Below the pieces are notes generated by a model. The model did no database searches. It saw only the letters and a program-made list of their open reading frames with translations, and had not been told where the DNA came from. DNA of 41,648 bases from Saprospiraceae bacterium (GTDB taxonomy: Bacteria; Bacteroidota; Bacteroidia; Chitinophagales; Saprospiraceae), in NCBI GenBank assembly GCA_020846655.1, contig JADLDL010000013.1, positions 1 through 41,648 of the forward strand, in the 5' to 3' direction. Numbering within the stretch: the stretch's first letter is position 1; each line of letters opens with the position of its first letter. Made by a program: the position numbers and the translations under genes. Below, piece after piece: positions 2,117 through 35,553 of the stretch.

Positions 2117-3646
2117 ATGACAGAACAAGAAATTCTGCGCCGCGAAGCGCTCCATAAACTGCGCGAACTGGGCATCGACCCCTACCCTGCCGAGATGTTC
2201 GAGGTGACAGCTCACGCCACCGACATTCTCGCCAACTACCAGGAAGAGGTGTTGGAAGACGGCAGCAAAAACCGCCTCAACTTTCAGCAGGTGGCCCTCG
2301 CCGGCCGCATCATGGCCGCCCGCGAAGCCGGCAAAGCCATGTTTATGAACCTCCAGGACAGCAGCGGCCGCATCCAACTCTACCTGCGCCGCGAAGAAAT
2401 CTGCCCGGGCGAAGACGCCACCCTCTGGGATATGGTGATCAAAAAACTGCTCGACCTGGGCGATTACGTCGGCGTGCGCGGCTATGCGTTCAAAACCAAA
2501 ACCGGCGAAGTGTCGGTGCACGTCCAGGAATTTCGCTTCCTGGCCAAAAGCCTGCGCCCCCTGCCGACCGTGAAACGCGACGCCGAAGGCCACGTGTTCG
2601 ACGCGTTTACCGACCCCGAACAGCGCTACCGCATGCGCTACGTCGACCTGACGGTGAACCCCGAGTTGCGCGATATTTTTATCAAACGCAGCAAAATGAT
2701 CAAAACCATCCGGGCCTACCTGGATGAACTGGGTCTGCTTGAGGTCGAGACGCCCATCCTGCAACCCATCCACGGCGGCGCCGCCGCCCGCCCCTTCAAG
2801 TCGCACCACAATACGCTGGACATGCCGCTGTACCTGCGCATCGCCAACGAACTGTACCTCAAACGCCTCATCGTGGGCGGCTTTGAAGGCGTGTATGAAC
2901 TGGGTAAAATGTTCCGCAACGAAGGCATGGACCGGACCCACAACCCGGAATTTTCCATGCTCGAATTCTATGTAGCCTACAAAGATTACTTCTGGCTGAT
3001 GGACGTGACCGAGCAAATGTTCGAGCGCATCGCCCGCGCTATCAGCGCCGACGGCGGCACCCGCGTGCCAGCCGGCGAACACGAACTGGAATTTGCCGGC
3101 CCCTACACCCGCCTGACCATGTTCGACGCCATCCACCAGTACACCGGCCTCAATGTAGAGACGGCTACGGAAGAGCAACTCCGCACGTATTGCAAAATAC
3201 AGGGCATCGACATCGATCCCACGATGGGCAAAGCCAAACTGATCGACGAAATTTTTGGCGAAAAAGTGGAGCCCAACCTGATCCAGCCCACCTTTTTGAT
3301 CGACTACCCCATCGAAATGTCGCCGCTCACCAAAAAACACCGCAGCAAACCCGGTCTGGTGGAGCGCTTCGAACTGTTTGTGAACGGCAAGGAAGTGGGC
3401 AACGCCTACTCCGAGCTCAACGACCCCATCGACCAGCGCGAACGGTTCGAAGACCAACTCGGGCTGGCCGAACGCGGCGACGAGGAAGCCATGGCTATGG
3501 ACGAGGATTTCCTCCGCGCCCTCGAATACGGCATGCCGCCCACCGCCGGTATCGGCTTTGGGATCGACCGCCTCACCATGTTGTTTACCGGCCAGCGCAG
3601 CATCCAGGAAGTACTGTTTTTCCCGCAAATGCGCCCGGAAGTGTAG
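2117..3646 (+). CDS. lysS: Lysine--tRNA ligase, class II
   Basis: Charges tRNA-Lys with lysine using ATP; cytoplasmic homodimer. The 509-residue protein has an N-terminal OB-fold anticodon-binding region (about 55-165) and a class II catalytic core. Motif 2 begins near R267 (FRNEGMDRTHNPEFSMLE) and motif 3 is GIGFGIDRL near 477-486; the sequence ends FFPQMRPEV, as usual for the family. The final TG of the Val codon and the TAG stop (3644-3646) are also the first bases of a palindromic repeat, so the gene end and repeat start coincide. A -7 box lies 58 bases upstream of the start. Confidence 0.97.
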   Translation: MTEQEILRREALHKLRELGIDPYPAEMFEVTAHATDILANYQEEVLEDGSKNRLNFQQVALAGRIMAAREAGKAMFMNLQDSSGRIQLYLRREEICPGEDATLWDMVIKKLLDLGDYVGVRGYAFKTKTGEVSVHVQEFRFLAKSLRPLPTVKRDAEGHVFDAFTDPEQRYRMRYVDLTVNPELRDIFIKRSKMIKTIRAYLDELGLLEVETPILQPIHGGAAARPFKSHHNTLDMPLYLRIANELYLKRLIVGGFEGVYELGKMFRNEGMDRTHNPEFSMLEFYVAYKDYFWLMDVTEQMFERIARAISADGGTRVPAGEHELEFAGPYTRLTMFDAIHQYTGLNVETATEEQLRTYCKIQGIDIDPTMGKAKLIDEIFGEKVEPNLIQPTFLIDYPIEMSPLTKKHRSKPGLVERFELFVNGKEVGNAYSELNDPIDQRERFEDQLGLAERGDEEAMAMDEDFLRALEYGMPPTAGIGFGIDRLTMLFTGQRSIQEVLFFPQMRPEV

Positions 3647-3767
3647 GGCGAATTTTCAATTCGCCTGTCGTGCGGCGCGTACGCCATGTAGTAAAATCGA
3701 ATTAAAAATTCGCTTGTTGTCTTGTAGCGTACGCCGTAGATTGAGCGAATTAAAAATTCGCTCTACA
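3642..3767. repeat. Palindromic inverted-repeat element, copy 1 (degenerate)
   Basis: Starts TGTAGGGCG at the lysS stop, then the hairpin GGCGAATTTTCAATTCGCC, a core with GCGGCGCGTACGCC, then CGAATTAAAAATTCG, then a second core CGTACGCCGTAG and the arm AGCGAATTAAAAATTCGCT ending CTACA at 3767. It fills the whole space between the lysS stop and a point 2 bases before the next ATG, so it is both the lysS 3' region and the leader of the following gene. The flanking base pair of the hairpin differs between arms (G-C against A-T) while pairing is kept. Confidence 0.85.
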
Positions 3768-3769
3768 TT

Positions 3770-4528
3770 ATGAAAACTATTTGCAACGCCTGTCTCTTGT
3801 TCCTGGCCCTGGCCTGCGCCGGCTGTTTCGACTTTACCGAAGAAATCTGGCTCAACAAAAACCGCTCCGGCCGCTACGAAATGACGATCGAAATGGGCTC
3901 CGGCCCCTTCGCGTCCATGCTCCGCATGGCCCAGGAAAAAACCAACGATTCCCTCCGCGCGCTGGGCCAGCCCCCGCGTTCGCAGGACACGATCATCGTG
4001 CTGGCCAATTTGCCGGACTCGGTGAAACGCCTGTTTCCATACCCCGACGCACTCAACAATACCCGGCTCGATTTCAAAGTCGACAAGGCGCTGCGTTTCA
4101 AATTTCAATTCGATTTCAAAAAAATCGAGGACATCGCGCAGTTCTGGGAAACGCTGCAAGCCTTTGACCGGCTGCAAAAAGACAGCACCCTGAAAGGCCT
4201 GGACGCCCCGGCCATCGGCAACCTCTCTGGTATGCTCAGCGGCGTGCCGGATTTGAAATTTGACGGAAAACTATTGCAGCGAAGTACCCGGGTGGATACG
4301 ACCAGCCAGGAAATCGGCCAGTTGTTTTTTGAAAACCAGGACGATGGGCTGGCTAAAATGATGTTCCGAAACAAAACCTACCGGATCATTTATCATTTGC
4401 CGAAAAAACCCAAATCCGTCAGCGGCGCCGGGTTTAGTACCGACGGCAAAACCGTCAGCGGGCGGTTTCCGCTGCTGGATGTCATGCGCGACAACCAAAA
4501 ACTATCTTGCGAGATTCGGGTCAAATAA
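3770..4528 (+). CDS. Predicted lipoprotein of unknown function
   Basis: A 252-residue exported protein. A hydrophobic leader (residues 1-19) ends LALACAGCFDFTEE, so lipidation at Cys19 after CAG, or Cys16, is likely though neither is a textbook lipobox. The rest is soluble, with alternating charged and hydrophobic segments and a basic mid-region around LRFKFQFDFKK. The FDFTEEIWLNKNRSG opening resembles uncharacterised Bacteroidota lipoproteins; I do not know a function. Its upstream region is made entirely of repeat copy 1, and copy 2 begins 5 bases after its own TAA stop. Antisense frames here are shadows. Confidence 0.8.
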   Translation: MKTICNACLLFLALACAGCFDFTEEIWLNKNRSGRYEMTIEMGSGPFASMLRMAQEKTNDSLRALGQPPRSQDTIIVLANLPDSVKRLFPYPDALNNTRLDFKVDKALRFKFQFDFKKIEDIAQFWETLQAFDRLQKDSTLKGLDAPAIGNLSGMLSGVPDLKFDGKLLQRSTRVDTTSQEIGQLFFENQDDGLAKMMFRNKTYRIIYHLPKKPKSVSGAGFSTDGKTVSGRFPLLDVMRDNQKLSCEIRVK

Positions 4529-4532
4529 CTCC

Positions 4533-4606
4533 TGTAGGGCGAATTTTCAATTCGCCTATCGTGCGGCGCGTACACCGTAGCGAAAGCGAATTGAAAATTC
4601 GCTGCA
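4533..4606. repeat. Palindromic inverted-repeat element, copy 2 (single unit)
   Basis: A nearly complete 74-bp unit: left arm TGTAGGGCGAATTTTC with hairpin GGCGAATTTTCAATTCGCC, core CGTGCGGCGCGTACACCG, right arm AGCGAATTGAAAATTCGCT ending TGCA. It fits exactly between two convergent gene ends: the lipoprotein stop (4526-4528) and the stop of the small peptide gene (4611-4613). Confidence 0.88.
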
Positions 4607-4610
4607 CGGA

Positions 4611-4855: not shown

Positions 4856-5054
4856 CGTAGGGCGAATTTTCAATTCGCCTATCGTGCGGCGCGTACACCG
4901 TAGCATAGGCGAATTGAAAATTCGCCCTACAACACACGGTGGGCAACATGTAACGTACACCGTAGCATAGGCGAATTGAAAATTCGCCCTACACGCGCAG
5001 GGGGCAACACGTACCGTACACCGTAGCATAGGCGAATTTTCAATTCGCCCTACA
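4856..5054. repeat. Palindromic repeat element, copy 3: one full unit plus two tandem half-units
   Basis: 4856-4931 is a full inverted unit: 27-base arms pair perfectly except for the first base and flank a core with GCGCGTACACCGTAGC. It is followed by two direct repeats of 62 and 61 bases (4932-4993, 4994-5054), each with a variable GGGCAACA(C/T)GTA lead, the CGTACACCGTAGCATA core and a hairpin arm. The CGTACACCG cores start at 4892, 4954 and 5015. In the last arm (5031-5049) the loop reads TTC instead of GAA, so that small hairpin is flipped. The last CTACA contains the reverse-strand TAG stop of the hybrid kinase. Confidence 0.88.
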
Positions 5055-7926
5055 GGAGTTCGCTGGGCGAGATGCCGAATGCGTCTTTGAAGGCTTTGGC
5101 AAAATAGGCGGGGCTGCTGAACCCCACGTCGTAGCACACCTCCGATACATTGCCGGTTCGGGCTTCCAGCATATCCTTGGCGCGTTTCAGCCGGAACATC
5201 CGGATAAACTCCACGGGCGCCTGGTCGGTGAGGGCCGTGAGTTTGCGGTGCAACTGGCTCCGGCTCAGGCCGATCCGGTGGGCCAGGTCTTCGACGTTCA
5301 ATTGCTCGTCGGCGAGGCGTTCTTCGAGAATGTCGGTCAGGCGCTGAAGGAAGCGATCGTCGGCGCTGGAGAGGGCGATCGCTTTGGGTTGCAGCCAGAC
5401 GTCGCGCCGAAACTGTTCGCGCAGGCGGCGGCGGCCGTCAACGAGGTTTTGGGCGCGGGTGCGCAGTTCGCGGGCATCGAAGGGCTTGGTCAGGTAGTCG
5501 TCGGCGCCAGTTTCGAGCCCACTGAGGCGGCTGTCCTGGTCGGCTTTGGCGGTGAGCAGGATGACCGGGATATGGCTGGTGCGTTCGTCGGTTTTCAAGA
5601 GCCGGCAGAGTTCGTTGCCGTCCATTTCAGGCATCATAACGTCCGACACCACCAGGTCGGGGATGTGCTCGGTGGCCAATTGAAAGCCTTCCCGGCCGTT
5701 TGGCGCCAGCAAAATGCGGTAGGCGCCGGCCAATTGATCGCGGATAAATTCCTGCACATCGCGGTGGTCTTCGACGATGAGGCACAGCGGTTGTTCGGCG
5801 GATTCGGGCGGAGCAGCGGCCGCGGATGCGGTGGGCTCGGCCGGCACCGGTTGCCGGGGCGGAGCCGCTACCGGAACGGGCTGCGTTGTTTTTTCTGCCG
5901 GGCCAAACTGCGCCTCGCCAACCGGCAAGTGCAGGATAAATCGGGCGCCTTGCCCGGGCCTGCTCTCGACCGCAATTTCGCCCCGGTGCAGGGCCACCAG
6001 TTCTTTCACCAGGGCCAAGCCGATGCCGGTGCCCTTGTCGGAGGCGCCTTCTACCTGGTAAAACCGTTCGAAGATTTTATCGGCGTCGTCCGGGGCAATG
6101 CCCGGACCGGTGTCGGCGACCGAACACAGCAGGGTTTGCTGTTCCACGCGGGCAGAAAAATGAATCGTTCCGCCGGTAGGGGTGTGTTTGAAGGCATTGG
6201 AAAGGAGATTGGAGATTATTTTTTCCAACTTATCGCGGTCAAACCAGGCCTCCAGCGGGGATTCGGGCGCTTCCACCTGAAAATCGATCCCATTGGCTTC
6301 CGCCAGGCTGTCGAAGGTATGGGCCAGGACGCGGAGTGCCCGGCCGAGGTCGTCGCGGCCGACGGCAAGTTGCATACGGCCGCTTTCCAGTTTGGAGAGG
6401 TCGAGCAATTGGTTGACCAATTCGAGCAGCCGGTTGGCGTTGCGACGCAGCAGTTGGGCCTCGGCGAGGGGTACGGCGAGTTGGCCATCCGGGTGCGGGT
6501 TGGAGAGCCATTGGCTGACCGGGCCGGAAATGAGGGTGAGGGGGGTGCGAAATTCGTGGCTGATGTTGGTAAAAAAAGCGGTTTTAATGCGGTCGAGTTC
6601 GCGCAGTTTTTCGGCTTCGGCTTGTTGGAGCGACAGGGCGTGCAGGGCTTCTTTTTGCCGCAGGCGCTGGCGTTGGCGGACATATTGGAAAAAACCCAGC
6701 AACACCAACACGAGAGCGAGGGCCGAGAAGAGGAGCAGGCGTTGGCGGTTGTTTTGTTGTTCGATCTGGAGTTGTTGTTGAGCGATTTCGGCTTTTTGCT
6801 TTTGGGTTTGGTATTGGGCTTCTATTTCCGTCACCTTCCGGATGTTGTCTTGTTTAAAAATAGAATCGGCGATGCCGACATATTTTTTATACCAGGTGTA
6901 GGCTTCGCCGGGTTGGTGCAGGCCCTCGTAGATGCTGGCGAAGACTTTGTAGTAGAGTTCGCGGGCATGGTCCAACTGGTTTTGTTCGACCAGGGCATAG
7001 CCTTCCTTTGCCGTCGCGAGGGCTTGTTGGTAGTTGCCGGAAGCGGCATAGGCTTCGCTGAGGTTGACTATTGGGAACACGGCATTGGTGACGTTGTCCA
7101 GTTGCAGAAAGTATTGTTTGGCTTTTTGCAGCCAGGGAATGGCGGCTGCCGGCTGGCCGAGTTCAGTGTAGGTGTCGCCCAGGTTGTTGCAGAGCATGCC
7201 GGCTTGCGACCATTTGCTGTATTTCTCGGCCAATGCGAGCCCGACCTGAGTGTATTCCAGGGTACGCGGCAGGTCGTTTTTGCGCCCGTACACGCTGGCC
7301 AGGTTCATGTAGCACTGGATGAGGCGTTTTTCATGGCCCAGTTCCTTGCGGATGTTCAGGGCTTTTTCGAAGTATTCGATGGCTTTGTCTTGCAGGCCGT
7401 CGTCGCTGAAGAGGTCGCCGATGTTGTTGTAGTTGTAGGAAGCGTCGAGGCGGTTGCCCAGTTGTTCGTCGATTTGGGCGGAGCGCAGGTAGCAGGTGAT
7501 GGCCGAATCGCTTTTGCCGAGGGATGCCCAGGCATTGCCCATGTTGCCGATGGCGGTGGATTGTTCTTTGGGCTCCTTCAATTGGGTAAAAATGTGGTAT
7601 TCCTGGCGGAAAAATTCCAGTGCGGCCTCCGCTTTGTTCAGGTCGAGGTGCGCGTTGCCGCGCAGGTGAAATGCCATCGCCCGGCCTTTTTCGTAGGCGG
7701 CTTGGCGGGCCATTGCTGCGAGGGAATCGGCATAAAGCAGGCCAACCTGAGGGTTGCCCAGGCTGTTTTCGTTGGCAATTTCATAAAAAATATCGATCCG
7801 TTTGTGCGGGTTGATCTCTTTCTGAAAGGCCTGCCGGAGGCTGTCGAGCGCGTGGGGGTCTTGGGCAAGGGCTGTGCGGGAGAGCAGCGGCAACAGCAGG
7901 AACAGGCTAATGCATTTGGCGCGCAT
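5050..7926 (-). CDS. Hybrid two-component regulator: TPR sensor, histidine kinase, receiver, AraC output
   Basis: A 958-residue one-protein phosphorelay. Order: signal peptide (1-21), TPR repeats (about 40-370) expected in the periplasm, coiled coil, membrane helix near 395-415, dimerisation domain with phospho-acceptor H457 in SHEFRTPLTL, ATPase domain with LLSNAFKHTP, DTGPGIAP and GTGIGLAL, a Pro/Ala linker, receiver with acceptor D762 in SDVMMPEMDG and the KPF lysine, then an AraC-type helix-turn-helix (about 860-958). All catalytic motifs are intact. Bacteroidota hybrids of this design usually control a nearby transport or degradation operon, but none is adjacent here, so the target is unknown. 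The TAG stop lies in repeat copy 3. Confidence 0.93.
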   Translation of the reverse strand: MRAKCISLFLLLPLLSRTALAQDPHALDSLRQAFQKEINPHKRIDIFYEIANENSLGNPQVGLLYADSLAAMARQAAYEKGRAMAFHLRGNAHLDLNKAEAALEFFRQEYHIFTQLKEPKEQSTAIGNMGNAWASLGKSDSAITCYLRSAQIDEQLGNRLDASYNYNNIGDLFSDDGLQDKAIEYFEKALNIRKELGHEKRLIQCYMNLASVYGRKNDLPRTLEYTQVGLALAEKYSKWSQAGMLCNNLGDTYTELGQPAAAIPWLQKAKQYFLQLDNVTNAVFPIVNLSEAYAASGNYQQALATAKEGYALVEQNQLDHARELYYKVFASIYEGLHQPGEAYTWYKKYVGIADSIFKQDNIRKVTEIEAQYQTQKQKAEIAQQQLQIEQQNNRQRLLLFSALALVLVLLGFFQYVRQRQRLRQKEALHALSLQQAEAEKLRELDRIKTAFFTNISHEFRTPLTLISGPVSQWLSNPHPDGQLAVPLAEAQLLRRNANRLLELVNQLLDLSKLESGRMQLAVGRDDLGRALRVLAHTFDSLAEANGIDFQVEAPESPLEAWFDRDKLEKIISNLLSNAFKHTPTGGTIHFSARVEQQTLLCSVADTGPGIAPDDADKIFERFYQVEGASDKGTGIGLALVKELVALHRGEIAVESRPGQGARFILHLPVGEAQFGPAEKTTQPVPVAAPPRQPVPAEPTASAAAAPPESAEQPLCLIVEDHRDVQEFIRDQLAGAYRILLAPNGREGFQLATEHIPDLVVSDVMMPEMDGNELCRLLKTDERTSHIPVILLTAKADQDSRLSGLETGADDYLTKPFDARELRTRAQNLVDGRRRLREQFRRDVWLQPKAIALSSADDRFLQRLTDILEERLADEQLNVEDLAHRIGLSRSQLHRKLTALTDQAPVEFIRMFRLKRAKDMLEARTGNVSEVCYDVGFSSPAYFAKAFKDAFGISPSELL

Positions 7927-22376: not shown

Positions 22377-22452
22377 TGGTGACTCCGAGAGGACTCGAAC
22401 CTCTAACCTTCTGATCCGTAGTCAGATGCTCTATCCATTAAGCTACGGAGCC
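22377..22452 (-). tRNA. tRNA-Arg (anticodon ACG)
   Basis: On the minus strand the cloverleaf is complete: acceptor GGCTCCG with CGGAGTC (one G-T pair), D arm AGCTTAATGGATAGAGC, anticodon stem TCTGA/TCAGA with loop CTACGGA (anticodon ACG, read as ICG for CGU/CGC/CGA), T arm AGAGGTTCGAGTCCTCT, discriminator A and an encoded CCA. Confidence 0.97.
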
Positions 22453-28557: not shown

Positions 28558-29958
28558 ATGGCAACACCAATCAAATTCGGAACCGATGGCTGGCGTGCCA
28601 TCATTGCAGACGATTACACGGTAGACAACGTCATGCGCGTGGCAGAAGCCACGGCCCTCTACATGAAAAAACACAAGATGAAAAGCGCCGTTATCGGGTA
28701 CGATTGCCGGTTTGGCGGCCTGCTTTTCACTGAAACCACTGCCCGCGTACTGGGCGCCTATGGTATCAAATGCCACGTGAGCACCAGTTTCGTTTCGACG
28801 CCTATGGTGTCGCTGGGGGTGGTGAAAACCAAGAGCCAGATTGGCGTCGTGATTACGGCCAGCCACAACCCGCCTTCCTACAACGGCTTTAAACTCAAAG
28901 CGCATTACGGCGGTCCCATGGTGCCATCGGGTATTGCCGAAGTGGAAGCCCTTATTCCGGATGTGTGTTCGCTGAACACCTTGCCCACCGTCCGCGAACT
29001 GGTGGCCAAAAAACTGATCGTCGATGCCGATCTGGAAACCATGTACCTGCGCCACGTCCGGAAAAATTTCGACATGAAGGCCATCAAACAAAATGCCGGC
29101 CGCATTGCCTACGATGCCATGTACGGCGCCGGGCAGAGTGCCGTGCGCAAATTGCTGCCCCGCTCGGTCTTTTTGCACTGCGACCTGAATCCCGGCATGC
29201 ACGGCCAGGCCCCGGAACCCATCCACCGCAACCTGCAATTGCTGAGCGATACGATCAAAAAGAATCCCAAAATCACGGGCGGCCTGGCCAACGACGGCGA
29301 TGCCGACCGCATCGGGATGTACGACGAAGACGGCAATTTTGTAGACAGCCACCACCTCCTGCTGATCCTGTTGCTGTACCTCTACAAGTACAAAAACATG
29401 CGCGGCAAAGTGGTTTTCACCTTCTCCGTGACGGATAAATTGAAAAAAATGGCCGAAAAATTTGGCCTGCCGTACGAAATCACCAAAGTCGGCTTCAAGT
29501 ATATCGCCGAAATCATGACCCAGGAGGATGTCCTCGTGGGCGGCGAAGAGTCCGGCGGCCTGGCTGTAAAAGGCCATATCCCGGAGCGCGACGGCATTTG
29601 GATGGGCTTGCTGGTGTTTGAATTTATGGCTAAAACCGGCAAAACGGTCAAAGGCTTGGTGCAAGAAGTGTACGACGAAGTTGGCGCTTTTGCCTTTGAA
29701 CGCGACGACCTGCACATCACCGAGGCGCAAAAACAAGCCGTGATCGCCGCCTGCCAGGCCCGCAGTTACAAGGCTTTCGGCGACTACAAGATCCAGGGCA
29801 TGGAAGACCTCGACGGTTGGAAATTCCTGCTGGGCAATGAAAAATGGGTCATGATCCGCGCCTCCGGCACCGAGCCGGTGCTGCGGGTGTATGCCCAAAG
29901 CGGCAGCCTGGCGGAATGCCGCCAGATGCTGGATGCCACCCGTGCTGCTATTTTGTAA
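28558..29958 (+). CDS. Phosphoglucomutase/phosphomannomutase family enzyme
   Basis: A 466-residue alpha-D-phosphohexomutase that moves phosphate between C1 and C6 of glucose, mannose or glucosamine. FGTDGWRAI opens the protein. S102 in ITASHNPPSYNG is the phospho-serine, NDGDADRIGMYDEDG binds magnesium, GGEESGG recognises the sugar, and RASGTEPVLRVYAQ binds phosphate. All four sites are intact; exact sugar specificity is not evident. The last codon is TTG and the TAA stop (29956-29958) belongs to the left end of repeat copy 4. Confidence 0.93.
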   Translation: MATPIKFGTDGWRAIIADDYTVDNVMRVAEATALYMKKHKMKSAVIGYDCRFGGLLFTETTARVLGAYGIKCHVSTSFVSTPMVSLGVVKTKSQIGVVITASHNPPSYNGFKLKAHYGGPMVPSGIAEVEALIPDVCSLNTLPTVRELVAKKLIVDADLETMYLRHVRKNFDMKAIKQNAGRIAYDAMYGAGQSAVRKLLPRSVFLHCDLNPGMHGQAPEPIHRNLQLLSDTIKKNPKITGGLANDGDADRIGMYDEDGNFVDSHHLLLILLLYLYKYKNMRGKVVFTFSVTDKLKKMAEKFGLPYEITKVGFKYIAEIMTQEDVLVGGEESGGLAVKGHIPERDGIWMGLLVFEFMAKTGKTVKGLVQEVYDEVGAFAFERDDLHITEAQKQAVIAACQARSYKAFGDYKIQGMEDLDGWKFLLGNEKWVMIRASGTEPVLRVYAQSGSLAECRQMLDATRAAIL

Positions 29959-30043
29959 CGCGAATTTTTAATTCGCGTATGCTACATCGGGTGTGTCGAT
30001 TCATGCCCGACGTAGCGTACGCGAATTGAAAATTCGCGTTACA
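29954..30043. repeat. Palindromic inverted-repeat element, copy 4 (TGTAA type), between convergent stops
   Basis: A 90-bp element with arms TGTAACGCGAATTTTTAA and its inverse TTGAAAATTCGCGTTACA, inner ATCGGG/CCCGAC pairing and a loop near TGTGTCGATTCATG. About 35 of 38 arm positions pair. The left TGTAA gives the stop of the phosphohexomutase gene, and the right TTACA gives, on the other strand, the stop of the DUF3857 gene. The whole gap between the genes is this element. Confidence 0.92.
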
Positions 30044-31985
30044 ATTGTTTAAAGACAGCCTGTTCGCTGTCCCACTTTTTCATTTTTTTATAAAAAACAA
30101 CCAAGTCCGGATAATGCTCCGGCGCCACGGTGCCGGCCCTCAGCACCAGGTGGCGGCTATACTGCAACACGCCGTTCTGAAAAGAAACCGAGCGCTGGTA
30201 GCGGCCAAAAACGGTCTGCGATTCCACGTCGGCAGGCAACGACTCGGGCAACCAACCCGCCGGCACCGTCACGGTCAGTTTGGCCACGTAGGTGTGCCCA
30301 AAGCGCCGAAACACCGGCGACACCCGGGCTGAATCGGCAGGATACAGCGTCGACCAGGGTTGAAAAAAGTTGGGCTGAAAATACAGGCGCTGGGCGGTTC
30401 TGGTACACCAAAGGGCACTGCTCGCTTCCATGCTGGCCTGCCCCACTGGAAGTCCCGTAAGCATACTGTCCAATTGAAGGGTAAAGGTCTGGATTTGGCC
30501 GCCTTTCAGGTTGAAATAGCGTTCCACCCATTTCCGCTGGTCCTGCTGATCCGTTTCCCGGGCCGCCCGTTCGAAACCTTCATCTTCAATGGCCAGGCCC
30601 TTGAAGCCCGCGTACCACTGAATCCGGGACGCCTCTTTGCCCGCCGGAACCTGGATCTGTACGGAATCCGTTCGAACATTATCTGCCTCGGCCGGCGCCG
30701 GCAACTGCACGAAGTGACCGTGCTCCTGATCGATCATCAAGGCCCGTCGGCCGCCAGTAAACGTGCCCAGGTACCCAAATGGACAGGTCTGCGAGGTGCA
30801 TTCCAGGAAAATCGTATCGCGGGTATAGGTCGGAACGGTGAGGATGACATGGTTAAACGATTGGGAGGCAAAAGCAGGGTCCAGTTCTACCGGATCGTTG
30901 CCCGCATACACAAGGGTGTAGTAGGCCTCAATCCCAACCGCCCGAAGCAAACTGCAGGTATACCAGGAAAGCGCCTTGCAATCGCCGTATTTCTTGAGGT
31001 GTACAAAATTTGGATCAAAGGGCTTCCAGCCGCCAATCCCGAGTTGGACGCTGATGTAGCGGGTGTTGTTTTGCACATATCGGTACACCGTCCTGATTTT
31101 ATCCAACTCGGACTGCCCTTGTGTGCGCCGTCGGATATCGGACACGACATCGGCGGCCAGAGGCGGCAAGGAGGATAACATTTGATGCGTCCAACGGGCA
31201 AATCCATCCCAGGAGCGAAAAGAGCCTGAAAATCCGCTGATCTCAAAATCCTGTGCATGGAGCCGAACAAAGGGGGCCTGGTGCAAAATGGATAGATTCA
31301 GTGGTTCATCGGCGATGGCTTTCAGGTGTTGAAATGTCCAGGTATAATGTTGTGTGCCGTTTTTGCCTTTGGCAATTACCGGTTCCGGGCTGCGCTCCGG
31401 TTTGTACAACAAAGAATTCCCCTCCGGCACTTGCACGGTGCAGCGGGAGCGCTCTACAGCCGTGTAAAAATTTGGTTGCGGGTAGTAATCCGGGCAAAAA
31501 AACGCGCTTTTAGCGCGGTATGTATATTCCAGTTCAAACGTGAAAGGCAGGGAATGGCCCCGGAGGTCGAGCAGTAAATACCGGAGGTCGTCGGCCAGGG
31601 TGAGCGCATCGAGGTATGATAAATCCTGAAACCCTTTTTTGTCATAGGATTTCTCCAACGCCCCGGCAGCGTTGTACACCTGGCAGCGGAGATCGCGGAG
31701 CGTATTGAACTGATCGTACGGCAAAAGGATACGGGCCACCTCCTCGGCGCTTTTATCCAAAATGGTAATGACCTGGCGGTGGCGGGTTTCCAGCGCGGAA
31801 GCGGAGGAAATTTCGAGATCAAGCGCATGGTCGCGCACAACGACCATGGCGCCAACACGCAATTCGGCCGGTATCAAATCTGCGGCGAAGGGGAGTGACA
31901 GTTGGCCAAAAAGGGATGCGCTACTACCCAGCAGGCAGCAGCAAAGGGCACAAGCCCGCCAGGCAAGGGATGTTGGAGAGGGCAT
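30039..31985 (-). CDS. DUF3857 / transglutaminase-like exported protein (catalytic Cys and His kept)
   Basis: A 648-residue exported protein: signal peptide to about residue 28, N-terminal DUF3857 beta domain (about 45-255), and a transglutaminase-like core with C336 in KKYGDCKALSW and H379 in SFNHVILTV; the third position reads LECTSQTCPFGYLG, with Glu where Asp is usual, as often in this family. The rest is beta-rich. Function in Bacteroidota is unknown, perhaps protein cross-linking or proteolysis in the periplasm. It is paired with a paralogue upstream (84 bases apart). Both end in KQL. Start ATG 31985 gives the signal peptide. Confidence 0.85.
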   Translation of the reverse strand: MPSPTSLAWRACALCCCLLGSSASLFGQLSLPFAADLIPAELRVGAMVVVRDHALDLEISSASALETRHRQVITILDKSAEEVARILLPYDQFNTLRDLRCQVYNAAGALEKSYDKKGFQDLSYLDALTLADDLRYLLLDLRGHSLPFTFELEYTYRAKSAFFCPDYYPQPNFYTAVERSRCTVQVPEGNSLLYKPERSPEPVIAKGKNGTQHYTWTFQHLKAIADEPLNLSILHQAPFVRLHAQDFEISGFSGSFRSWDGFARWTHQMLSSLPPLAADVVSDIRRRTQGQSELDKIRTVYRYVQNNTRYISVQLGIGGWKPFDPNFVHLKKYGDCKALSWYTCSLLRAVGIEAYYTLVYAGNDPVELDPAFASQSFNHVILTVPTYTRDTIFLECTSQTCPFGYLGTFTGGRRALMIDQEHGHFVQLPAPAEADNVRTDSVQIQVPAGKEASRIQWYAGFKGLAIEDEGFERAARETDQQDQRKWVERYFNLKGGQIQTFTLQLDSMLTGLPVGQASMEASSALWCTRTAQRLYFQPNFFQPWSTLYPADSARVSPVFRRFGHTYVAKLTVTVPAGWLPESLPADVESQTVFGRYQRSVSFQNGVLQYSRHLVLRAGTVAPEHYPDLVVFYKKMKKWDSEQAVFKQL

Positions 31986-32069
31986 ACGGACAGAAGTAAA
32001 AAGGTGCAATCCTGATACGCGGGTGAGGCTGAGGTTTGTTGCTCAGTTAGGTTTGTCGAATTCGAGCAA

Positions 32070-34073
32070 TCAGAGTTGCTTCAGCACGAGCATTTCCTGG
32101 TTTTTTTGAACGATCAAGTCAAAGAACTTGCGCAGATCGGCATATTCTTCCGATATGAAAAAGACCCGTTTCATTTGAAGTTTTGATACCACCACAATTT
32201 CATTGCCTTCGGCGGCACAGCGGTAATGAAACGACAGGTCTTTTTTGTCGCCAAAAACAACGATCTGGTCGGCAGGTTTTTCTGCCAGGGTATAGCCCTC
32301 GGGCACCGTCAGGGTTAGCACGTAGTTGAACCCGGCAGCAAAGGTAAAATCCAGCGGCCACTGCCGGGATTCGGCCTGTAAGAGGTTTTCGGTAAAAATG
32401 CCGCCGATCACGGGTTTGAGGTACAACAGTGGTCCGGCTTCTTTCTCCTGGCTGATCTGTACCTCTACCGCCGTCGAAAACGGATCGGCTACGCGGGTAA
32501 ACTTCGGTTCGGCGGGGTTCCATTCGTTCAGGTCCGAAAGCAGTTCTGCGACGTGGGCTTTTTCGCCCTCCCGGCTTACCGTTTGTTGGGCCACCACTGC
32601 CGCATAACCGGTATTTTTAAACACCGCGCTGCCTGTCCATTGTTCATTTTCATACCTTAGTTTGACCAAGGTGTTGCGCCCTCCCTGTGCGCCATCCTGC
32701 AGGGGCAAAAAGCCCGACCGGTCCTTGCTGACCCGCCAGCCCTGGCCGTTCAGGCACTTCAGGGGTAGGAAGCCCAGAGGTAAATCCAGGGTTACTGCGT
32801 CGAGCAGCAAGGATTTGTCCGCGATATCGACCGCTACCAGGACATAGTTGAATTTACGCAGGTTGGGATATACCGGGTGTGGCCGGCCATAGTCCCGGGT
32901 GCCCAGGATGACGGGGTCGGCCTGGAGTCCGGCCGCCCGAAGCAACGCAACGGCCAGCAGGTTGATTTCCGCCACAGACCCCTTGCCGGATTGATACACT
33001 TTTGCGGTGGATTGCCGCGCAAAAAGACCATGGCGCTCATCCCATTTTATGTGCTCCTTCAGGTGGGCCAGGATAGCCTCCGCCTTGGCCCTGGGCTCGG
33101 TGATGCTGCCGGCAATTTGGCCTGCCAAATCCTTTTCAAAACGACCCGGATCGGCGTATTTCCCAAAATCTTCATCCTCCAGCAGGGTATTGTTAAACCG
33201 GGAGTACGAAGACATGACCTCCTGCGCGGCCGTGCCCGGGATCTCCATCCGAAGCAATTGAAACTCCATGTGCGCGGCATAATCCTTCTCTGCCCCCATA
33301 AACGGCTCCGCCCGAAAGGAAGCCGTATTTTTCATGACCCAGCGGTTCTGGTTGCAATTCTCCGTGAAACTTACCCGTTCCGTCCGGCCATCCGGGCTAT
33401 CAATGTATCCCTGGTAATCCCGCCGGACGATTACCGGCTCGGCAGATTCCAGTTCCTGCATACCGTGAAAAACGCGTTGGTAAATCAAAAACTGGGGCAT
33501 AATCATCCGGTATTCGCTGTACAAACTGGGGATATTTTCCTGGAAATACCAGCCTTCCAGGTTGGCGATGTCGCGGCTGACAAACGAATACTGGTATTCG
33601 ATGACACAGCCCTCGCGGGCCCCCGGGATGGCAAATTTCAATTCCTTGACCCCAAACCCTACTTCTGTGGTGTGAATATCCTTCGACGACAGTTCGATGG
33701 TCTGGGCCACCCCGTTTGCCAGATAGTGGCACATCGCTTTTACCTCGCGTATCTTTTCATAGTCGCCCGATTTGCCGGCATAGTAATACACCTGCACATT
33801 GGCCTGTTCCAAGCCGGATTTGGTCAAAATTTTGATGCGCTTGTGGCGTTTCAGTTCGTAGGCAAAGCCTTTGGAGCCCTCGATGGCAAATTCCGATTCT
33901 CCGTAGTCGCACAAGACCATAGCGGCGGCCCCGGGCTCGAAGGCGCAATCGGTGCGTTGCAGATCCGTGAGTTCTACTTTGCCGTACTTGATGGGAGGTT
34001 TTTGAGCTTGAACAGCAAGGGCTGCTATCCAAAACAGGATACACAGGGGCACAACGGCCTTGGAGCAATACAT
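32070..34073 (-). CDS. DUF3857 / transglutaminase-like protein lacking the catalytic Cys and His
   Basis: A 667-residue exported paralogue of the next gene downstream. Signal peptide to about residue 23 (ending AVQAQ), DUF3857 domain with FAYELKRHKRIKILTKSG, then a transglutaminase-like core in which the Cys position is V367 (GKGSVAEINLL) and the His position is Tyr (KFNYVLVAV), when aligned on the shared LLRA motif. It is therefore probably not an active transglutaminase. It may bind the same target or partner the active paralogue. Length and the KQL ending are kept, so it is not a decaying pseudogene. Confidence 0.85.
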   Translation of the reverse strand: MYCSKAVVPLCILFWIAALAVQAQKPPIKYGKVELTDLQRTDCAFEPGAAAMVLCDYGESEFAIEGSKGFAYELKRHKRIKILTKSGLEQANVQVYYYAGKSGDYEKIREVKAMCHYLANGVAQTIELSSKDIHTTEVGFGVKELKFAIPGAREGCVIEYQYSFVSRDIANLEGWYFQENIPSLYSEYRMIMPQFLIYQRVFHGMQELESAEPVIVRRDYQGYIDSPDGRTERVSFTENCNQNRWVMKNTASFRAEPFMGAEKDYAAHMEFQLLRMEIPGTAAQEVMSSYSRFNNTLLEDEDFGKYADPGRFEKDLAGQIAGSITEPRAKAEAILAHLKEHIKWDERHGLFARQSTAKVYQSGKGSVAEINLLAVALLRAAGLQADPVILGTRDYGRPHPVYPNLRKFNYVLVAVDIADKSLLLDAVTLDLPLGFLPLKCLNGQGWRVSKDRSGFLPLQDGAQGGRNTLVKLRYENEQWTGSAVFKNTGYAAVVAQQTVSREGEKAHVAELLSDLNEWNPAEPKFTRVADPFSTAVEVQISQEKEAGPLLYLKPVIGGIFTENLLQAESRQWPLDFTFAAGFNYVLTLTVPEGYTLAEKPADQIVVFGDKKDLSFHYRCAAEGNEIVVVSKLQMKRVFFISEEYADLRKFFDLIVQKNQEMLVLKQL

Positions 34074-34172
34074 GAGGCTGAATTTGGGTAAACGTTGAGA
34101 TTTTACGCTCTAATTTAGCGCCTCAGCCGCCAAACTTCCAACCAGCCTTTGCAATTTAACAAGTCGGGTAAG

Positions 34173-34262
34173 TGAATTTGCATTAGTCAATTCGCGTACG
34201 CAGTGTCGGGTGTGTCGATTCACACCCGACGTAGTGTACGCGAATTGAAAATTCGCGTTACA
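34173..34262. repeat. Palindromic inverted-repeat element, copy 5 (TGTAA type, left arm damaged)
   Basis: The right arm is intact: TACGCGAATTGAAAATTCGC then GTTACA. The core GTCGGGTGTG/CACACCCGAC pairs perfectly around TCGATT. The left arm has lost its terminal part and carries a GCATTAG insertion. The reverse-strand TAA at 34258-34260, the odhB stop, is part of the right terminus. The damaged left end faces the 5' side of the DUF3857 gene, where no stop is needed. Confidence 0.85.
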
Positions 34263-35496
34263 GATTCAGCAGCAGCGAGACCGGATCTTCGATCAGGTTT
34301 TTCACTTTCACCAGAAACGTAACCGAAGTAGCCCCGTCGATGATCCGGTGGTCGTAACTGAGTGCCAGGTACATCATCGGGCGGATTTTGACTTCTCCGT
34401 CGACGGCAATCGGCCGTTCTTTGATGGCATGCATGCCGAGGATGGCGCTTTGCGGCTCGTTGATGATGGGCGTGCTCATCAGGCTGCCGAAAATGCCGCC
34501 GTTGGTGATGGTGAAGGTGCCTCCCGACATTTCTTCCAGCGACAATTTGCCATCGCGGGCTTTGCCCGACAAATCTTTGAGCGCGGCTTCGATCTCGTGA
34601 AACCCGAGGCTTTCCACGTTGCGGATGGGCGGCACCACCAGTCCATTGGGGGTACTGATGGCGATACTGATGTCGGCATAGTCGTGGTACACCACGTCGT
34701 CGCCGTCGATAAAGGCATTCACTTCGGGCATTTCCAGCAGCACCTTGGCGCAAGCCTTGGCGAAGATGGACATGAAGCCGAGTTTGATGCCGTATTTTTT
34801 CACGAAGGCTTCCTGGTATTTTTCGCGCAGGGCCATTACGGCGCTCATGTCCACCTCATTGAAGGTGGTGAGCATGGCTGTGTTGTTTTTTGCGCTGACG
34901 AGGCGTTTGGCGATGGTGCGGCGCATCCGGCTCAGGCGTTCGCGGCGGTCTTCGCGGGAGAAATCAGCGCGGGGGGCCGGGGCGGGGGCAGCCGGAGCGG
35001 GTTTGGGCGCCGGGGCCGGTGTGGCAGGAGGCGCTTCCGGGGTTTTTGCTTTCTGGTCGACGGCCTTGAGGGCATCTTCCTTGGTGATGCGGCCGTCTTT
35101 GCCGCTGCCATTGACGTCGCTGGGCGACACGCCGCCTTCTTCCAGGATTTTTCCGGCGGCTGGCGAGGGGTGTCCGCTGGCATAGCCACCGGCGGTGGCG
35201 GGCGCCGGGGCGGCTGGGGCAGCGGCGCTGGGGCTGTTGCCGGTGGCACTGGCTGCTGCTGCAGTATCGATTTTGGCAAACAAGGCGCCTACTTCCAGGT
35301 CCTGGCCTTCTTCGGCGACCCAGATGAGGGTGCCGGCCGAATCGGAGGAGAGTTCCTGGTTGGCTTTTTCAGTTTCGATTTCACAAAGCGGGTCGTCCAT
35401 GGCAACTACCGAACCGTTGGGTTTGAGCCATTTGGAAAACGTTACGCTGGAGATGGATTCTCCCAGGTTTGGGATTTTTAATTCAACAACCGCCAT
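34258..35496 (-). CDS. odhB: Dihydrolipoyllysine-residue succinyltransferase (E2 of 2-oxoglutarate dehydrogenase)
   Basis: Core E2 of the 2-oxoglutarate dehydrogenase complex (TCA cycle), transferring succinyl from lipoate to CoA. The 412-residue protein has a lipoyl domain with K44 in [10 protein letters not shown], an Ala/Pro linker, an E1/E3-binding domain (about 104-150: [20 protein letters not shown]), a second Pro/Ala linker, and a catalytic domain with active-site H383 and D387 in [12 protein letters not shown]. The GLVVPPIRN segment fits the succinyl type. Partner genes are not adjacent. Stop and repeat copy 5 coincide. Confidence 0.93.
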
Positions 35497-35553
35497 AGCA
35501 AGGAATATAAGTCAATGTTTAAGTATGGAGTGGGTCTGTACGACAGGGCGCCG

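Follow-up and report, generated by a model that had tools for sequence, protein, structure and literature searches.

Hairpin pairs at gene ends in the window

The window analysed here is a stretch of 41,648 nucleotides from a contig (JADLDL010000013.1) of a Saprospiraceae bacterium. At positions 29954-30043 it carries a palindromic repeat whose two ends are also the ends of two convergent genes. The left neighbour was named a phosphohexomutase gene in the initial annotation (28558-29958, plus strand), and the right neighbour is copy 1 of a DUF3857 gene (30039-32009, minus strand, start uncertain; Pfam assignment on 30039-31847). The repeat consists of two outward-facing REP hairpins with CGCGAATT stems and GTAA feet, with a palindromic spacer between them, and it folds as a single continuous hairpin (-40.5 kcal/mol, z -11.8, shuffle mean -13.5). 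The left TGTAA foot (29954-29958, plus strand) contains the TAA stop codon of the phosphohexomutase gene (29956-29958), and the TGTAA foot of the opposite unit (30039-30043, minus strand) contains that of DUF3857 copy 1 (30039-30041). Both stops were read directly, confirming that one element closes two convergent genes, one at each terminus.

Further copies lie elsewhere in the window, beside genes whose names are again those first given to them. A REP cluster at 3642-3767, 3' of lysS (2117-3646, plus strand), has units at 3649, 3698, and 3746, the second without a GTAR foot, and its TAG at 3644-3646 is the lysS stop. The REP pair at 4533-4607 follows an open reading frame (3770-4528) with a foot offset of -9, and its right unit at 4587 has no GTAR foot. 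Four hairpins are clustered at 4856-5054, where a TAG (5050-5052, minus strand) ends a hybrid two-component kinase gene (5050-7926, minus strand). At 34187-34262 a REPIN is made up of one intact hairpin (the 34241 unit, with a GTAA foot) and one half-lost arm, and its TAA (34258-34260, minus strand) is the stop of odhB (34258-35496, minus strand). The copies at 3698-3712 and 34187-34197 are degenerate or half-lost, which suggests in-place decay of the family.

Five genes were reported to stop flush with a repeat terminus, each with NTG followed by TAG or TAA, and direct reading gave exactly these positions. The last codon and stop are GTG-TAG in lysS, CTG-TAG in the kinase gene, TTG-TAA in both the phosphohexomutase gene and DUF3857 copy 1, and CTG-TAA in odhB; the five proteins end in V, L, L, L, and L, respectively, hence all in Leu or Val as described.

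The window contains 12 exact CGAATT-NNN-AATTCG cores. Allowing up to two mismatches raised the number to 16, whereas 100 shuffles averaged 2.55 and always stayed below 16. A chance origin of the window cores and of the stop coincidence was rejected by these shuffles together with genome-wide offset counts. The only known RNA family of the Rfam type matched in the window was tRNA, with one gene (RF00005) at 22380-22452 on the minus strand.

A footed hairpin family and its distance to stop codons

The draft genome of the host (G000) comprises 6.44 Mb and is 96.7% complete. It contains 97 exact cores in 49 clusters, all of which were read. In 89 of the 97 cores (72 GTAG and 17 GTAA), a perfect 8-bp stem enclosing a 3-nt loop is immediately preceded by a GTAR foot, the arrangement that characterizes GTAG-REPs, in which GTAG or a variant stands beside a short perfect stem-loop. 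The stem reads XGCGAATT and the foot T-GTAR, the base before the foot being T in 83 of 88 readable copies (94%). Beyond the foot, position -4 is biased toward A/T, and G is scarce at -2. Foot and first stem base are coupled, with GTAG-G in 58 and GTAA-C in 13 of the 89 footed copies. Neighbouring units no more than 200 bp apart are mostly inverted, as in REPINs or BIMEs (29 in +- order, 6 in ++, 6 in --, and none in -+). The copies are dispersed and mostly extragenic, occupied TGTAR sites being intergenic in 57 cases, on stops in 21, and intragenic in 6. The repeat is a GTAG-REP arranged as REPINs, and the family is a new instance of the known REP/REPIN type in a Saprospiraceae-like bacterium. 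The REP-like unit suggested at the outset is supported.

To relate the copies to gene ends, genes were called with a purpose-written codon-score script, and foot-gene pairs were recorded from -30 to +60 of a stop, a gene being counted twice if two feet were near. The 42 pairs show a clear excess on stops: 23 are at offset 0, where the stop is the TAR of the foot, and 10 at -5, where a stop precedes the foot (TAA|TGTAR). The other nine are at -27, -17, -9, -7, +13, +26, +44 (twice), and +55. In the five pairs with positive offsets the gene reads into the repeat in another frame, three of them with a RIFNS tail. REP-encoded protein tails with GRIFNSP or TRIFNSR were seen at L037:9144, L061:2142, and L052:4527. 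Frame 0 was found in 23 of 28 pairs (binomial p 1.5e-7 against one third), a bias that fits both selection and target choice. The coincidence with stop codons apparently has two sources: TAR is part of the conserved GTAR foot, and at gene ends the hairpin lands or persists immediately 3' of that tetranucleotide. In the two main offset classes, 0 or 5 nt separate the stop from the stem.

Among TGTAR sites, 21 of 46 at gene stops, 57 of 277 in intergenic DNA, and 6 of 887 within genes are occupied (stop versus intergenic, p 6e-4), rates that are inflated because the sample (37 regions and the window, together 532 kb of the 6.44 Mb genome) was centred on REPs. Gaps between genes that hold REPs are convergent in 11 cases, same-direction in 25, and divergent in 3, against 52, 205, and 57 for gaps without REPs. 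Around 325 hairpin-free stops, 39 of the 52 TAAT tetranucleotides within -3 to +27 are the stop itself plus T. The TAA|TGTAR class fits a preference for TAAT better than a strict model in which the target alone supplies the foot, and such a model does not explain this class. Two copies in the relative G023 follow TGA, so the stop-preceding class is not confined to TAA. The initial proposal of targeting to NTG-TAR gene ends is supported as far as landing at gene ends is concerned, but it did not list the second precise class, TAA|TGTAR.

Lineage distribution, empty sites, and transposase genes

Besides the host, 3 of 41 same-genus relatives (G023, G040, and G047) carry the footed motif, and it is absent in 38. 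Occupied and empty versions of the same gene end were found, in line with the insertion first suggested: the site beside a PSD1/DUF1553 gene is empty in G023, and the odhB end is free of hairpins in 21 of 21 relatives. At the end of an AhpC/TSA-type gene (L055), REPs are present in both the host and G040, at positions that differ by four codons, and each provides the stop of its gene. Part of the element behind the ThrS gene is common to the host and G023, which indicates that some copies are inherited.

Other hairpin arrangements were observed in the relatives. In G047, two near-identical tandem units with two REPs each lie downstream of a RecQ-like helicase gene (L241:1780-2060). A different GTAG-footed hairpin family, AGACAAGG-CATG-CCTTGTCT, occurs near gene ends in G043 and G046 (L183 and L218), and GGGGCGTCCCGAGG stems in G023 perhaps represent a further REP family. 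GGGG is the second commonest tetranucleotide before long hairpins in the relatives' loci (26 of 810).

A search for Y1 transposases (PF01797), the REP-associated enzymes that the initial annotation proposed to look for, gave matches in 30 of 39 relatives searched and none in the 96.7% complete host draft, where the cognate Y1 gene that marks a RAYT-mobilised element was thus not found. The cognate enzyme may have been lost, may be encoded in the 3% that the draft lacks, or may lie elsewhere. Forty Y1 neighbourhoods were fetched from the relatives, and GTAR hairpins flank the gene on both sides in two of them (L267 and L271), with GTAG on both sides in L271. These Y1 genes between GTAA or GTAG hairpins (L267:739-1450 and L271:696-1455) are candidate REPtrons of the genus. 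A single GTAR hairpin with an 8-bp stem lies near the Y1 gene in L269, L270, L274, and L292. The stem of the host family is not among the hairpins at these six loci. Of four ORFs scanned beside the G047 copies, none was a Y1 gene; one encodes a RecQ-like helicase and three had no match.

Origin of the foot and relation to known systems

We consider it likely that this is a GTAG-type REP/REPIN family whose hairpins insert or persist next to GTAR, on its 3' side, at gene ends, and that at several genes the foot was probably the native stop codon. A competing explanation holds that TGTAR is always carried by the element, which would insert loosely near gene ends and survive only where it gives an immediate in-frame stop, so that the landing site need not carry TGTAR. 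Gene ends in relatives bear on both. Loci were fetched for chosen genes and their ends counted by eye, the ThrS counts being confirmed by a recount. Informative relatives were available for 11 of the 23 offset-0 genes; the AhpC/TSA-type gene was set aside since its sole relative, G040, has its own REP, as were weak matches (27% identity for the kinase; 30% and 34% for two further genes).

Native protein length is kept in 6 of the 11 genes, which argues against a foot that is always element-borne. The last residue differs in two of these six (L043:7841 and L059:12453), and their changed last codons were counted against a target-supplied foot. Four of the 11 genes are shorter than in the nearest relative, and some copies may therefore bring their own stop, as the competing explanation predicts. 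The NapH-like gene is 13 residues shorter than in G005 and falls about 11 short of a common form, its ends varying widely among 24 relatives, two of which end where the host does, one with TTG-TAG. EamA lacks 3 residues compared with the one relative available for it, the kinase falls 1-2 residues short of two relatives, and DUF3857 copy 1 has one residue fewer than in G023. A KQL ending common to both DUF3857 paralogues had been offered as a sign of a native end, but this is weak evidence: copy 2 ends CAA-CTC-TGA, and the G023 match of copy 1 (56% identity) ends VFVRKE* rather than KQL.

Hairpin-free orthologues often have NTG-TAR where the host has a foot. The odhB end residue is the same in 21 of 21 relatives, with NTG-TAR in 14 and an abutting hairpin in none, and that of the phosphohexomutase in 22 of 27 (excluding L065, cut by a contig end), with NTG-TAR in 6. 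The lysS end was counted against a target-supplied foot, its position being found in 8 of 27 relatives, with NTG-TAR there in one. The PSD1 gene ends TTG-TAG in the host and TTG-TGA in G023, at the same residue. SecA of G040 ends AAG-TAG directly followed by an 8-bp hairpin, with an unchanged C-terminus and no T before the GTAR-type foot, an exception to a TGTAR carried by the element.

For ThrS (assigned by Pfam), 27 of 28 relatives share the end residue and 21 of 28 have NTG-TAR. An 8-bp stem abuts the stop in 6 of the 21 NTG-TAR relatives (G050, G009, G007, G006, G010, and G052) versus 0 of the 7 others. The six stems have four different sequences, none being the host stem; two sequences occur in two relatives each, perhaps through one event each. 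In the fetched stretches no stem sequence appeared more than once in a genome, and the stems are candidate REPs. Counting against a target-supplied foot, 0 of 79 ThrS ends in named genomes have an abutting hairpin, with NTG-TAR in 6 of the 79; the closest named ThrS matches come from metagenome assemblies of Saprospiraceae. Across 537 gene ends of relatives, a stem of at least 8 bp directly follows the stop in 7 of 58 NTG-TAR and 4 of 95 other NNG-TAR ends, hence in 11 of 153 NNG-TAR, against 0 of 191 NNH-TAR and 1 of 193 TGA ends (Fisher p 7e-6), six of the seven NTG-TAR matches being ThrS, which was chosen because the host has a REP there. With all 28 ThrS ends subtracted from the table, the figures are 5 of 132 versus 1 of 377 (p 0.005).

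The flanks of host elements were also joined in silico. Without any foot, the phosphohexomutase frame runs far past its end, and ThrS and PSD1 gain 7 and 53 residues; no displaced native stop was read after the element at phosphohexomutase or PSD1, again contrary to an element that always brings its stop. Keeping a foot restores its own gene by construction and only the neighbour's end is informative; with the left foot of the window element kept, DUF3857 copy 1 acquires a short native-like end, VFKQFTK*. The ThrS far flank starts with TAAAC, a possible displaced native TAA that was counted against a target-supplied foot. EamA without a foot ends 4 residues later, close to the G023 form, and this native-like length speaks for an element-borne foot there, which is the best explanation for that gene. 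The DsbA/esterase pair gave a mixed result (DsbA +36 and esterase -1 when joined without a foot).

An exclusively element-borne TGTAR also draws support from the T that precedes the foot in 83 of 88 copies, which fits an element-borne T, from the five pairs in other frames, and from the rarity of intragenic copies. In view of the retained lengths, the native NTG-TAR ends, and SecA, we regard it as a possible but rather doubtful account. Descent from a DDE-type insertion sequence as a MITE with terminal inverted repeats would account for the inverted ends TGTAR...YTACA and is very improbable, since the family includes single units and neighbours that point the same way, and what is conserved is the footed hairpin. 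Least probable of all are vertically inherited transcription terminators that happen to follow stops: the hairpins do lie directly downstream of genes and part of the ThrS element is shared with G023, but a scan of 29000-35500 gave no terminator-like site within 29954-30043, whose stem is followed by no T-run (as an intrinsic or, as first proposed, a portable terminator would be), 38 of 41 relatives have no footed motif, and different stems abut the same ThrS end.

In the GTAG-REP reading that we prefer, the units, paired so that their feet face outward, would be non-autonomous and belong to the elements that RAYT (Y1, HuH) transposases mobilise in single-stranded form. At several genes, the hairpin probably arrived next to a (T)GTAR that already served as the native stop. 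One foot of a REPIN would be target DNA and leave the protein unchanged, and the other would be element DNA, able to re-end or slightly shorten a convergent neighbour; TAA|TGTAR (TAAT) would be a second landing context. A target-supplied foot may be the usual route, and the stem may act on the mRNA. We advance more tentatively, at somewhat less than even confidence, the specific account in which REP hairpins transpose into pre-existing (T)GTAR, native NTG-TAR stops can serve repeatedly as landing sites, as the ThrS stop has for different REP families in different species, and each REPIN has one foot from the target and one from the element. Overall, the interpretation in the initial annotation is partly supported. 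Repeated seating on native stops would explain how REPs crowd at gene ends without damage to proteins, and the family offers occupied and empty sites for testing whether the target supplies the foot.

Stop codons contributed by repeat ends have already been published: the termini of GTAG-REPs frequently provide neighbouring ORFs with a TAG stop (Di Nocera et al. 2013, PMC3733652). In our literature search, within the text available, we found no publication showing REPs landing on native stops by orthologue comparison, and the comparative evidence for a foot that can derive from the target looks new. REP dissemination is called poorly understood in one account (PMC8266576, available part). Predicted REPs have been counted in Bacteroidota species, and in E. 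coli translation is reported to be reduced when a REP lies no more than 15 nt from a stop (both PMC12306157, in the portion available).

The family resembles the GTAG-tagged REPs of PMC3733652, as far as the accessible text describes them, in the GTAG foot beside a short palindrome, the pairs in opposite orientation, the location mostly 3' of genes, and the TAG stops. That text names Proteobacteria, Cyanobacteria, Chloroflexi, and PVC as carriers, not Bacteroidetes, and the present family differs in having GTAA as a regular alternative foot (17/89) and the TAA|TGTAR class. REP_Sm of S. maltophilia, with its group 3 TnpA_REP, likewise has an 8-bp perfect palindrome, a 3-nt loop, and a GTAG motif in the part of PMC8266576 consulted, whereas its stem sequence and phylum are different and no TnpA_REP was found in our host. 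Bacteroidetes Y1 subclasses 2.4 and 2.6 comprise RAYT-type genes that are flanked by secondary structures, among them double-foot REPs (PMC6006769, from the section available). Pseudomonas fluorescens REPINs (Bertels and Rainey 2011, PMC3116915, partial text) are doublets that can fold into one long hairpin, as here; their excision was seen in sequencing reads, whereas movement in our host is deduced from comparison. The same source describes asymmetric excision leaving about 6 bp and suggests that the 5' tail pairs with or recognises the target. Such an asymmetric intermediate would predict one target foot and one element foot per REPIN.
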